Below, one piece after another: positions 25,012 to 29,394 of a stretch of 64,000 bases of DNA. The position numbers and the translations under genes are program-made. The DNA comes from Lacrimispora xylanolytica (GTDB lineage Bacteria > Bacillota > Clostridia > Lachnospirales > Lachnospiraceae). The stretch spans positions 3,705,001-3,769,000 of the forward strand of contig NZ_CP113524.1 in assembly GCF_026723765.1 (NCBI RefSeq). Direction: 5' to 3'. Within the stretch, counting starts at the first letter, position 1; the number at the start of each line of letters is the position of its first letter. The notes below the pieces were generated by a model. That model had not been told where the DNA came from. It made no database searches and was given only the letters and a program-made list of their open reading frames with translations.

Positions 25012-25443
25012 ATGAATAAACACATAAAGCTTTCTCCCTTGCTGGGAGGTTTTGCTGCTATTGCAGTGCTGGCACTGCTATTAGTCATATACACTCTGAC
25101 AAGACCGGTTCCCATGGCGGGTACAAAGAATATCTCCATTGATGTCGTATATGAAAACGGAGTCAAAGAGCATTATCAGATTACCACAGAAGCCCACTTT
25201 CTTCTGGAGGCAATAAGTTCCATTCCTGAGCTTAAGGTTTCAGGAACATCAAGCGACGAATTTGGACTAATGGTAACTACCATCAATGGAACGAGAGCCG
25301 ATTACCAAAAGGACCATGCTTATTGGGCGCTCCTGTTAAATGGCGAGCCCTGCAGCTACGGGGTCAGTCAGCAGCCCATTAAGGATAAGGAGGCATATAC
25401 GTTTCAGTATACCCCTGCAAACGAGGAGGCCCAAAAGCCATGA
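25012..25443 (+). CDS. Membrane-anchored DUF4430 (transcobalamin-like) protein
   Basis: A 143-residue protein with an N-terminal anchor helix (about 10-30) and an outside DUF4430 domain, the beta-grasp fold shared with intrinsic factor/transcobalamin C-termini (SSDEFGLMVTTINGTRADYQKDHAYWALLLNG). It overlaps the next gene by ATGA. Such domains are found beside ECF-type S components and may help capture a vitamin, possibly a corrinoid; the ligand is inferred, not shown. Confidence 0.75.
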   Translation: MNKHIKLSPLLGGFAAIAVLALLLVIYTLTRPVPMAGTKNISIDVVYENGVKEHYQITTEAHFLLEAISSIPELKVSGTSSDEFGLMVTTINGTRADYQKDHAYWALLLNGEPCSYGVSQQPIKDKEAYTFQYTPANEEAQKP

Positions 25444-25955
25444 AGACCGTTCCCCCTATGACAACTGGTGAACTGGTACGGGATGCTCTTTTAGCTGCCT
25501 TGTTATTTATCAGCCAGGTAAGTCTTTCCTGGATCAGTAACGTGGAGCTGGTATCCCTTCTGCTGATTTTATATACTCTGGTATTCAAAAAACACGTATG
25601 GCTGATCCTGTACGTGTTTATTGTATTGGAGGGACTTGTGTATGGATTTGGGCTGTGGTGGTTTTCCTACCTTTATGTATGGCCCATTCTTGTGGCTGCT
25701 GTTTTTCTTTTCATAAAAGGAAGACCTCCAAAGTCATTTACCATAGCCATATTATCAGGCATATTTGGATTGCTCTTTGGACTGTTCTGTTCTCTGTCCT
25801 ATGTTATCCTTGCAGGCCCCCATGCCGCCTTTGTCTGGTGGACGGCCGGAATTCCCTTTGACCTTGTTCATGGAATCGGTAATTTCCTGCTGTCCCTTAT
25901 CTTATTTTCGCCGTTATACCGGCTTCTTACCGCATTAAACCGAATCCAATCATAA
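25440..25955 (+). CDS. ECF transporter S-component-like membrane protein
   Basis: A 171-residue protein with six hydrophobic helices and the layout of an energy-coupling-factor S component, the substrate-binding subunit that works with a shared EcfAA'T module. It lies directly after a DUF4430 gene with a 4-base overlap. No EcfA or EcfT gene is in the window, so it would rely on a module encoded elsewhere. A cobalamin-type substrate is plausible by its partner but not proven. Confidence 0.72.
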   Translation: MKTVPPMTTGELVRDALLAALLFISQVSLSWISNVELVSLLLILYTLVFKKHVWLILYVFIVLEGLVYGFGLWWFSYLYVWPILVAAVFLFIKGRPPKSFTIAILSGIFGLLFGLFCSLSYVILAGPHAAFVWWTAGIPFDLVHGIGNFLLSLILFSPLYRLLTALNRIQS

Positions 25956-27225: not shown

Positions 27226-27340
27226 TTCGGTCATTCGGTTAGTTTCTACTAACTAAATATTTTCAAGTTGAATTCCTTGTATTGGATTTCATCTTACAAT
27301 TGATTCCACAAAACTTAACGGCGGGGAATGGAGATTTTAT

Positions 27341-29311
27341 ATGAAAGATATGTATCGCAAAGATAATATTTTTACCAAAGAAGAAATGGATGATATTTTT
27401 CTCATTCTGGAATATTCAGCTATTTCTCTTCTTGATATTAGGCATCATTTGATCTCTCCCGAAGAAGCTTTAAAAGATTGTATATTGCCTTCCAGTGCCT
27501 TTCTCTTTACGTATCCTGGAAAGGCAGAAGTGCTGTTGGGGGACAAATCCTATCAGATCAATCATTTCAGCCTCTTTCATGGCGGCAAAGGTACCTCCCT
27601 TTCCATTATTCCTCACGGTGAGTGGCTTGAATATTATATGATCTTCTACAAAACCGGTGAAACACAGTTTCACAAAGAGAAATTAAAGAAATTACTGGAG
27701 CAGATTAACCCATTTCAGCAGCAATATGGATTCACTCCCCAGAATCCGGTTTTTTTCACTGAGATTTTACGCAGTATATATGAACACTGGAACGAGCCTG
27801 CTCCCATGAAAAAATTTTATGAGAAATCTTTATTCTATCAATTTACCTATGAGCTATACAAAGAACTGGCAGAGGCCAGCGTATTGACCTTTGATCCAAA
27901 TATTGTAAAAATGACCATACGGTATATAGAAAAAAATTACGCAACTTCCATTGCAGTTCAGGATCTTTGTCAACGTTTTGGCATCAGCTACAGCCATTTT
28001 TACAGACTTTTCAAAAAGGAGACCGGTAGTACCTTTCAGGGATACTTATTAAAAATACGCTTGGAAAAGGCCCGGCAATATATGATAGAAAGCAGCTATT
28101 CACTTAGTGAAATTGCTAAATTTACCGGTTTTTATGACGAATTCCATCTAAGCAGCTCTTTTAAAAAGCTTACCGGCATGTCTCCGGCAACTTTAAGAAA
28201 GAATCTTACATGGGACAAGAAATATCCTTACATGGAAAATCCTGAGTTCTCACACTATAATGAAGCGTATCAAGTTAGTCAAAACAAACTCAATATACAA
28301 GGAGATATTATGTTAAAACATTTGAAAAACAAGACAGCAGTGATGGCTGCAGCGCTTTCATTCATGACTCTCTTATCCGGCTGTTCCACAGCATCATCAG
28401 TCTCAGACAACACGACTCCAACAGCCTCCCAGGCTGCAGACAATCAGAATTCTCAAAAAGATGATGATTCCCAAAAATCAGAAACAAAAATATTACAAAC
28501 GGTAAAAGGCGATGTGGAAATTCCCGTAACCCCAAAACGGGTCGTTACGGATAGTGGGCTATTAGGAGATATTCTGGCACTGGGTGTGACTCCAATAGCC
28601 ATTGAGAATTACGGTGCCGAAGATGTGTCCTATAAGGATTTAATCAAGGATATCACCGTCTTGGAAAAATGGGAACCAGAATACATTATGGCAGAGCAGC
28701 CAGATTTAATCATCACCCAATATGAAGAAAACTATGAGCAGCTATCAAAAATCGCACCAGCGGTTTATGTTCCCTCCGATCAGATGACGGTAGATGAAGA
28801 ATTATCATTTTTAGCAGAAGCCTTAGGAAAAGACCCGGAAGAAGGAAAAAAAATCCTGGACGCTTATTTTGAAAAAGTCGCTGAATATAAAGCCAAGTTA
28901 GAAGAAGCCGGCCTATACAACAAAACCTTCAGCGTCATCAGAGTCCAGGGAGAAAATCAGATCGGTGTTCGATGGAGCAACAATCTGGGCGGCCAGATTC
29001 TATTCGGCGCATTGGAGCTTCCTAAAACAGAAGGCGCGCAAGAAGAAATTGATGCAGGCCATGACTGGGGAGCAACTCTCTCCTTTGAAGCACTGCCTAA
29101 ATATATGGGGGATTACATTCTTGTGACGGAATACGGTAATTATGATTTAATCAAAGATAATCCGATCTGGAAGTCTCTTCCCGCTGTCGAGGCAGGTAAT
29201 ATTATTATACTCTCTGAGCCATTTATGTATCTGAATGATATTTACTCCTGGTCCGCCCAGTTAGACCTAGTGGGGGATGCTCTTTTGGAGTTAGCAAAGA
29301 AAGAAAAGTAA
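27341..29311 (+). CDS. AraC regulator in frame with siderophore-binding lipoprotein
   Basis: One uninterrupted 656-codon frame. Residues 1-290 are an AraC-family regulator with an N-terminal cupin-like sensing part and two helix-turn-helices (VQDLCQRFGISYSHFYRLFKKETG and EIAKFTGFYDEFHLSSSFKK). After about 30 linker residues comes M324, which starts a normal lipoprotein. No stop separates them. Fusions of AraC with a siderophore-binding domain are known (Btr of Bacillus subtilis), but there the binding domain lacks a signal peptide. Here an export signal sits in the middle, so either the downstream part is made separately, or the full protein spans the membrane, or an ancestral stop was lost. 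Iron-siderophore response is the likely role. Confidence 0.75.
   Translation: MKDMYRKDNIFTKEEMDDIFLILEYSAISLLDIRHHLISPEEALKDCILPSSAFLFTYPGKAEVLLGDKSYQINHFSLFHGGKGTSLSIIPHGEWLEYYMIFYKTGETQFHKEKLKKLLEQINPFQQQYGFTPQNPVFFTEILRSIYEHWNEPAPMKKFYEKSLFYQFTYELYKELAEASVLTFDPNIVKMTIRYIEKNYATSIAVQDLCQRFGISYSHFYRLFKKETGSTFQGYLLKIRLEKARQYMIESSYSLSEIAKFTGFYDEFHLSSSFKKLTGMSPATLRKNLTWDKKYPYMENPEFSHYNEAYQVSQNKLNIQGDIMLKHLKNKTAVMAAALSFMTLLSGCSTASSVSDNTTPTASQAADNQNSQKDDDSQKSETKILQTVKGDVEIPVTPKRVVTDSGLLGDILALGVTPIAIENYGAEDVSYKDLIKDITVLEKWEPEYIMAEQPDLIITQYEENYEQLSKIAPAVYVPSDQMTVDEELSFLAEALGKDPEEGKKILDAYFEKVAEYKAKLEEAGLYNKTFSVIRVQGENQIGVRWSNNLGGQILFGALELPKTEGAQEEIDAGHDWGATLSFEALPKYMGDYILVTEYGNYDLIKDNPIWKSLPAVEAGNIIILSEPFMYLNDIYSWSAQLDLVGDALLELAKKEK
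28310..29311 (+). CDS. Internal in-frame start: iron-siderophore-binding lipoprotein
   Basis: Within the long frame, ATG at 28310 has AAGGAG five bases upstream (28299-28304), a perfect ribosome site. It would give a 333-residue protein beginning with a Lys-rich N-terminus, hydrophobic core and lipobox LLSGC (Cys25), a Ser/Gln-rich spacer, then a Peripla_BP_2 fold (PKRVVTDSGLLGDILALG, EKWEPEYIMAEQPDLIIT). This is the normal architecture of FeuA/FhuD-like iron-siderophore binding proteins. No permease or ATPase gene is adjacent. Confidence 0.7.
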   Translation: MLKHLKNKTAVMAAALSFMTLLSGCSTASSVSDNTTPTASQAADNQNSQKDDDSQKSETKILQTVKGDVEIPVTPKRVVTDSGLLGDILALGVTPIAIENYGAEDVSYKDLIKDITVLEKWEPEYIMAEQPDLIITQYEENYEQLSKIAPAVYVPSDQMTVDEELSFLAEALGKDPEEGKKILDAYFEKVAEYKAKLEEAGLYNKTFSVIRVQGENQIGVRWSNNLGGQILFGALELPKTEGAQEEIDAGHDWGATLSFEALPKYMGDYILVTEYGNYDLIKDNPIWKSLPAVEAGNIIILSEPFMYLNDIYSWSAQLDLVGDALLELAKKEK

Positions 29312-29337: not shown

Positions 29338-29394
29338 ACGCCTGGATTGAAATTTCCTATGGAAGTTCCAATCCAGGCGTCCTTTTATTTATTA
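29338..29394 (+). terminator. Terminator after the AraC/lipoprotein gene
   Basis: ACGCCTGGATTG pairs with CAATCCAGGCGT, extended by AAATTTCC / GGAAGTTC with wobble pairs, then CCTTTTATTTATT. A strong intrinsic terminator. Confidence 0.85.

Follow-up and report, generated by a model that had tools for sequence, protein, structure and literature searches.

An AraC regulator gene of Lacrimispora with an embedded in-frame lipoprotein start and candidate iron operator: a putative two-product gene family in Bacillota

The Btr (YbbB) protein of Bacillus subtilis is described as an AraC-type activator with a sensory FeuA-like domain (PMC9609785), and the feuABC-ybbA operon, which it is reported to activate, is repressed by Fur (PMC6529636). 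The gene studied here lies in a 64,000-nucleotide stretch of a Lacrimispora genome (Lachnospiraceae; 4.5 Mb), hereafter the window. Like Btr, it has the AraC part first and the siderophore-binding domain second, in one frame and in an iron context, and the best NCBIfam match of its AraC half is the Btr model NF049932 (98.7 bits against a cut-off of 900 bits, covering the AraC half only). In contrast to Btr, members of the window family possess a signal peptide, a start codon, a Shine-Dalgarno sequence and a putative operator between the two parts, and they have kept the glutamates that are used for docking to a permease. With the class III siderophore-binding lipoproteins of FecCD importers (the FeuA and FhuD kind) the gene shares the Peripla_BP_2 domain, the lipobox and both docking glutamates, as well as the arrangement of a signal peptide and lipobox directly behind a start codon preceded by a Shine-Dalgarno sequence. 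It differs from them in that its nested frame starts inside another gene, so that the promoter-like region and the operator are themselves coding sequence.

Nested genes that are read in one frame from an internal start include the short form of CheA, IF2 and ClpB, and the yeast SUC2 gene uses two starts to serve two destinations. In all of these, as in the window, one frame has two starts and the shorter product is the C-terminal part; SUC2 further sends its two products to different compartments, as is proposed here. Unlike in these nested genes, the inner start in the window provides its product with a signal for export, and what looks like an iron operator of the type used by the host lies in the inner promoter-like region. 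Another related layout is that of ToxR and CadC, membrane-tethered one-component regulators with a DNA-binding part, a hydrophobic segment and an outer sensing part, which the long form in the window would resemble if it were tethered, whereas its hydrophobic segment is a predicted lipoprotein signal peptide with a cleavage site and a start of its own. Fusions of AraC regulators to binding proteins and in-frame internal starts are each already known. In the open-access literature we found no such fusion whose joint contains a signal peptide or an operator, although one may still be in print.

The frame at 27341–29311 (+ strand) is uninterrupted over 656 codons, and Pfam domains were recognized in both halves, all above their curated cut-offs, namely HTH_18 (residues 209–287), HTH_AraC (196–235) and Peripla_BP_2 (401–625; 62.1 bits against a cut-off of 27.5). 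These matches bear out the initial annotation, in which an AraC domain had been seen to read without a stop into a siderophore-binding lipoprotein. The features of the locus are collected in Table 1. The cysteine of the lipobox L-S-G-C, Cys348, is located 24 codons past the internal ATG at 28310; signal peptides and lipoboxes were called by pattern rather than by a trained predictor. Among solved structures, the ferric-hydroxamate receptors are nearest to the binding domain. The AraC_binding (cupin) domain was recognizable in two of 25 members (best E 0.00021), neither of which is the window protein. A structure model built from three near-identical input sequences had a mean pLDDT of 36.5 and was discarded. 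Upstream of the gene, at 25012–25955, there are two adjoining small frames. By eye, one product is secreted or anchored in the membrane and the other is a membrane protein; they could be a pair of ECF-type transporter components.

Table 1. Positions in the window of the fused frame, its parts and the signals in and around it
Feature	Position	Strand	Basis
Putative upstream iron operator, perfect dyad GTTAGTTTCTACTAAC, ahead of the entire gene	27238..27253	+	Upstream dyad in 13/13 Lacrimispora-type members
Shine-Dalgarno core GGAG of the first start	27330..27333	+	By eye
Whole frame: AraC, linker, signal peptide and siderophore-binding domain (656 aa)	27341..29311	+	ORF reading and Pfam
AraC half, residues 1–287; DNA-binding part 196–287	27341..28201	+	Pfam
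Coding linker, residues 288–323, also housing the embedded putative regulatory region	28202..28309	+	
Embedded promoter-like pair TGGAAA-17-TATAAT; weak -35, -10 at 28256–28261	28233..28261	+	
Putative linker operator, dyad GTTAGTCAAAACAAAC with one mismatch	28274..28289	+	
Internal Shine-Dalgarno AAGGAG	28299..28304	+	
Nested lipoprotein frame (333 aa), ATG at 28310	28310..29311	+	
Predicted lipoprotein signal peptide MLKHLKNKTAVMAAALSFMTLLSGC; lipobox LSGC, residues 345–348	28310..28384	+	
Siderophore-binding domain Peripla_BP_2, residues 401–625; predicted docking glutamates E447 and E583	28541..29215	+	
Probable terminator: hairpin CGCCTGGATTG / CAATCCAGGCG, then T-rich tail	29339..29389	+	By eye; absent from a scan with loop limit 8

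Among its nearest relatives, the gene of Clostridium sp. 12(A) is 99% identical over the protein and that of [Clostridium] aerotolerans DSM 5434 is 92% identical. In one scan of the genome contig collection the matches were confined to these two, and neither has a stop codon between the AraC and lipoprotein halves. The Lacrimispora genome itself encodes a second full-length fused copy with 42% identity and an identical layout. The initial annotation had left room for a simple gene pair with a recent loss of its stop codon and had proposed a comparison of related genomes. As the frame is open in both relatives, in the paralogue of the same genome and across two bacterial families, and as a search with the AraC half alone gave the same picture (see below), a stop loss or sequencing error confined to this strain has practically no probability left and was rejected. 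An error of sequencing or assembly was rejected as well, since independent assemblies, and about 100 homologues, show the same open frame.

Within the genus, eight of 25 genomes had a match at E <= 1e-60, and six contained full-length fused copies, up to four per genome. With the best three candidates scored in each genome, at least three of 397 Lachnospiraceae genomes, one of them from another genus, had full-length copies, as did at least five of 398 genomes of the phylum, comprising the window's own genome and four members of a second Bacillota family, termed f33, which we infer to be Paenibacillaceae-like. Among the 78 genomes of f33, 21 had full-length matches at E <= 1e-90, 90 matches in total and up to 11 per genome. 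Judged by sequence, the fused frame is a member of a family of AraC regulators joined to siderophore-binding lipoproteins in Lacrimispora, one other Lachnospiraceae genus and f33. Two genomes possess eleven full-length fused paralogues each, an unusual expansion of one regulator-receptor architecture. Among plasmid records, the binding-protein half alone was matched, on two plasmids of Paenibacillus polymyxa.

Since a full-length query favours fused frames, the AraC half alone was used to search 25 genomes, mostly picked for earlier fused matches, at E <= 2e-70. In 98 of the 101 matches the frame continues without a stop across the linker and into the signal peptide; a regulator and a lipoprotein cleanly separated by a stop were seen in none. 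The matches include 90 from the intact set with a signal peptide and six that were read directly, and no stop between the halves was found in these 96 intact copies (the window's own included). In two others the linker and lipobox are open and the binding domain is damaged, one copy has lesions in its AraC half as well as in its linker, and two are Btr-like fusions without a signal peptide. The weaker matches were nine fusions of 559–609 codons, a single copy with a frameshift, and six frames of just 283–323 codons; seven of the fusions were fetched, and all seven lack a signal peptide. These Btr-like sequences fit the earlier remark that fusions of the Btr type have no signal peptide. The lesions of the damaged fused copies (the three above, G792, and a fourth in one of the eleven-copy genomes, G867) lie in the AraC half, the linker or the binding domain, which suggests turnover of paralogues.

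Codons and linkers were analysed in 98 unique members, 85 from f33 and 13 of the Lacrimispora type, with the other Lachnospiraceae genus counted in the latter. The linkers are 35–54 codons long and end at an internal start codon, which is ATG in 92 members, GTG in four and TTG in two. A lipobox was found in all 98, its cysteine 20–25 residues past this start, and all 98 have a Shine-Dalgarno core ahead of the start, compared with 186 of 1210 other in-frame ATGs of the same genes. The start, AAGGAG and lipobox pointed out in the initial annotation are thereby confirmed as conserved signals. In f33, a Fur-type box TGATAATNATTATCA, scored against what we take to be the consensus, reaches at least 12 of 14 positions in 79 of 85 linkers and in none of 943 other windows of the same genes, and usually begins 40 bases before the internal start. 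In the Lacrimispora type its place is occupied by the dyad GTTAGT-N4-ACTAAC, which reaches at least 10 of 12 positions in nine of 13 linkers and in none of 177 other windows; the other four linkers have a weak dyad (8–9 of 12). The dyad lies mostly 39 bases ahead of the internal start, and 36 bases in the window. None of the 13 Lacrimispora-type linkers reaches 12 of 14 for the Fur-type box, and none of the 85 f33 linkers reaches 10 of 12 for the dyad.

A -10-like hexamer was found just before the operator in 77 of 90 operator-bearing linkers (12 of 14 for the Fur-type box, or 9 of 12 for the dyad), and in f33 its distance to the operator changes in 3-base steps in 60 of 66 cases. TTG is present 17 bases upstream, at the place of a -35 element, in just 42 of these 77 linkers; in the window the -35 (TGGAAA) is a poor one, and shuffles of the region yield promoter-like pairs in comparable number (6.4, vs 9 in the real sequence). 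A second operator, upstream of the entire gene, was found in all 13 Lacrimispora-type members and in 53 of the 85 from f33. On the opposite strand (28282–28254), a promoter-like pair TTGACT-17-TATAGT overlaps the linker operator; this pair may simply mirror the dyad, or antisense transcription into the AraC part may begin there.

When up to one mismatch is allowed, the dyad occurs at 30 places in its own genome, compared with nine for the reversed control, and two of the 30 are in the window (27238–27253 and 28274–28289). Twenty proteins adjoining dyad sites were tested with Pfam. They include six Peripla_BP_2 proteins, one FecCD permease, two DtxR-family repressors, one peroxiredoxin, one iron/manganese superoxide dismutase, two AraC regulators and one borderline match to a ferric reductase; the other six have no plain iron role (an ABC exporter type, a family-5 binding protein, DUF3793, a Crp-like regulator and two methyltransferases). 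From these neighbours, the dyad looks like the mark of an iron and oxidative-stress regulon of this Lacrimispora. Our guess is that a DtxR-family protein might bind it; the dyad is found upstream of two DtxR-family genes in the genome, and its half-sites resemble the DtxR consensus TTAGGTTAG(G/C)CTAACCTAA as given in PMC1382209, with a different spacing.

Over 28 independent pairs, synonymous difference is 0.36–0.53 in the AraC half. In the four 10-codon blocks that lead up to the internal start it is 0.23, 0.17, 0.13 and 0.27, and past the start it recovers; synonymous change in the linker is thus down to about one third. The nonsynonymous difference does not drop alongside, and dN/dS (30 pairs) is therefore 0.60–0.67 in the linker, compared with 0.18 in the AraC half and 0.11 in the binding domain. 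By this measure the linker is constrained as DNA and hardly as a peptide, and the weak constraint on the peptide argues against a conserved job for the linker of the long form itself. Further than some 40 codons upstream of the internal start, synonymous change is at its background level, with no sign of an AraC-binding site further upstream within the AraC coding part.

A weakly constrained linker peptide would be expected if two ordinary neighbouring genes were read through by chance, the open linker being a passive leftover of the operator region, and genuine gene pairs separated by a stop are indeed present among more distant relatives (three loci). This reading is made highly improbable by the state of the frame, in which no stop is found among 4139 linker codons, compared with 169 and 506 in the two shifted frames, and by the absence of clean pairs from the AraC-half search. 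At the varied linker sites, 20.6 stop-creating changes were expected and none was observed, in pairs that had been preselected as fused, for which the AraC-half search partly compensates. Moreover, all 79 Fur-type boxes are in one codon phase, though a second phase is equally stop-free; shared descent accounts for part of this uniformity. Part of the Fur-type box follows from the peptide, since synonymous recodings of the linker peptides often reach 12 of 14 (893 of 1700), the residues D-N-H-Y-Q having few codons; 13 of 14 is reached by 431 of 1700 recodings and by 67 of 85 real linkers. As read from these signals, the linker is a double-purpose element, in which protein code coincides with a -10-like hexamer, a putative iron operator, a Shine-Dalgarno sequence and a start codon.

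For such a frame the initial annotation had offered either two products or a membrane-spanning DNA-binding receptor. The conserved signals, including the promoter-like element and the candidate iron operator in the linker, argue well for two products. Were the full 656-residue protein instead the working form, its buried signal peptide would serve as an anchor with the AraC part inside and the binding domain outside, a siderophore outside the cell would be signalled directly to DNA, and the nested lipoprotein would be minor or absent. This fits an uninterrupted frame and a signal peptide that in 88 of 98 members exceeds every other stretch in hydrophobicity; its n-region carries a positive charge in 96 of 98, as expected if the N-terminal part stayed inside. 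However, the signal peptide of the window protein is not its most hydrophobic stretch, the lipobox, so oriented, would offer a site for cleavage, and tethering explains neither the conservation of a start codon, a Shine-Dalgarno sequence and an operator at one place nor the synonymous trough that ends at the internal start, and we regard it as unlikely.

Cleavage at the lipobox is the basis of a further alternative, in which a long exported precursor is cut by signal peptidase II into an outer lipoprotein and an AraC part, which the remaining stub of the signal peptide would keep anchored. The lipobox present in all 98 members and the open frame agree with such a polyprotein, and a bacterial precursor with a cut internal signal peptide has a precedent in FbcH of Bradyrhizobium, which reportedly is processed in this manner. 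As the only source of the lipoprotein, a polyprotein would nevertheless leave the nested start, Shine-Dalgarno sequence and operator without explanation; nothing in the sequence separates it from tethering, and we hold it to be less likely again than the anchored receptor.

The embedded start is followed by a domain with the features of a transport receptor. In such receptors, two glutamates dock to the permease. All 104 fused copies with a signal peptide have both (E447 and E583 in the window), as do 39 of 42 standalone binding proteins, compared with four of 11 Btr-like fusions without a signal peptide. A FecCD-like gene was found within 4.5 kb of 22 of 98 members, in many cases between a few and roughly a hundred bases downstream, whereas none of the 13 Lacrimispora-type copies has one within this distance and none is near the window gene. 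We think that the nested product would be an ordinary siderophore lipoprotein resembling a transport receptor.

The two halves of the gene have different relatives. The binding domain of the window is 70–71% identical to standalone lipoproteins encoded at the end of transporter operons in sister species and, the direct orthologue excepted, 33–40% identical to the other fused copies, with which the AraC half shares 37–48% identity. On FastTree trees, for which standalone proteins were sampled from gene neighbourhoods alone, the label 'fused with signal peptide' requires five changes for the AraC half versus 22 for the binding domain, 12 of which are forced by well supported branches. The contrast in identity and the tree changes suggest that the AraC-linker unit is old and stable, while binding domains have been exchanged with ordinary lipoproteins. 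In four loci of the sister species, these closest relatives of the window domain are plain lipoproteins encoded last in an operon, behind FecCD-like permeases and a frame of 600 codons, and in two of the four a second lipoprotein is located immediately behind the first.

In view of the embedded signals, we consider it likely that the locus is a single gene that is read from two starts in one frame, has two iron-operator regions and encodes both a long AraC-receptor form and a transport lipoprotein nested within it. The upstream region and the first start would yield the long protein of AraC part, linker and binding domain, while the promoter-like element and operator in the linker, if active and controlled by iron, would together with their own Shine-Dalgarno sequence and start yield the binding domain alone as an exported lipoprotein serving a FecCD-type siderophore importer. 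Since the frame stays open, the long product is presumably made and wanted. Its task we infer from Btr, a protein with a sensory FeuA-like domain that activates an operon: the long form would be a Btr-like activator, which by this analogy probably senses the same ferric siderophore as the nested lipoprotein, through the same binding domain. As for its location, the chances are roughly even that the long form is a cytosolic sensor with an unused buried signal peptide; a membrane-tethered receptor is a somewhat weaker candidate, and a precursor cut by signal peptidase II a much weaker one.

More tentatively, and as something short of probable, we propose that one binding domain serves two compartments, leading from the nested start to an exported transport receptor and from the first start to the ligand sensor of a DNA-binding activator, so that the two specificities could not drift apart. 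The joint would then be a peptide linker, promoter, iron operator, ribosome-binding site and start codon in one, with an operator type that depends on the host, the Fur type in f33 and a different iron dyad in the Lacrimispora type. If so, a domain exchange, as in the lineage of the window, would re-tune import and regulation in a single step.

If both products are made, these bacteria would possess conserved and strongly amplified in-frame nested genes (up to 11 copies per genome), with one product going to DNA and the other to the cell surface, and the codons of the joint would double as a regulatory switch. Gene finding that yields the long frame only would miss the lipoprotein, and siderophore receptors in such bacteria may therefore be undercounted. 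The family offers a natural case of selection on DNA and on reading frame in identical bases, and a system suited to asking whether one shared binding domain couples siderophore sensing to import.
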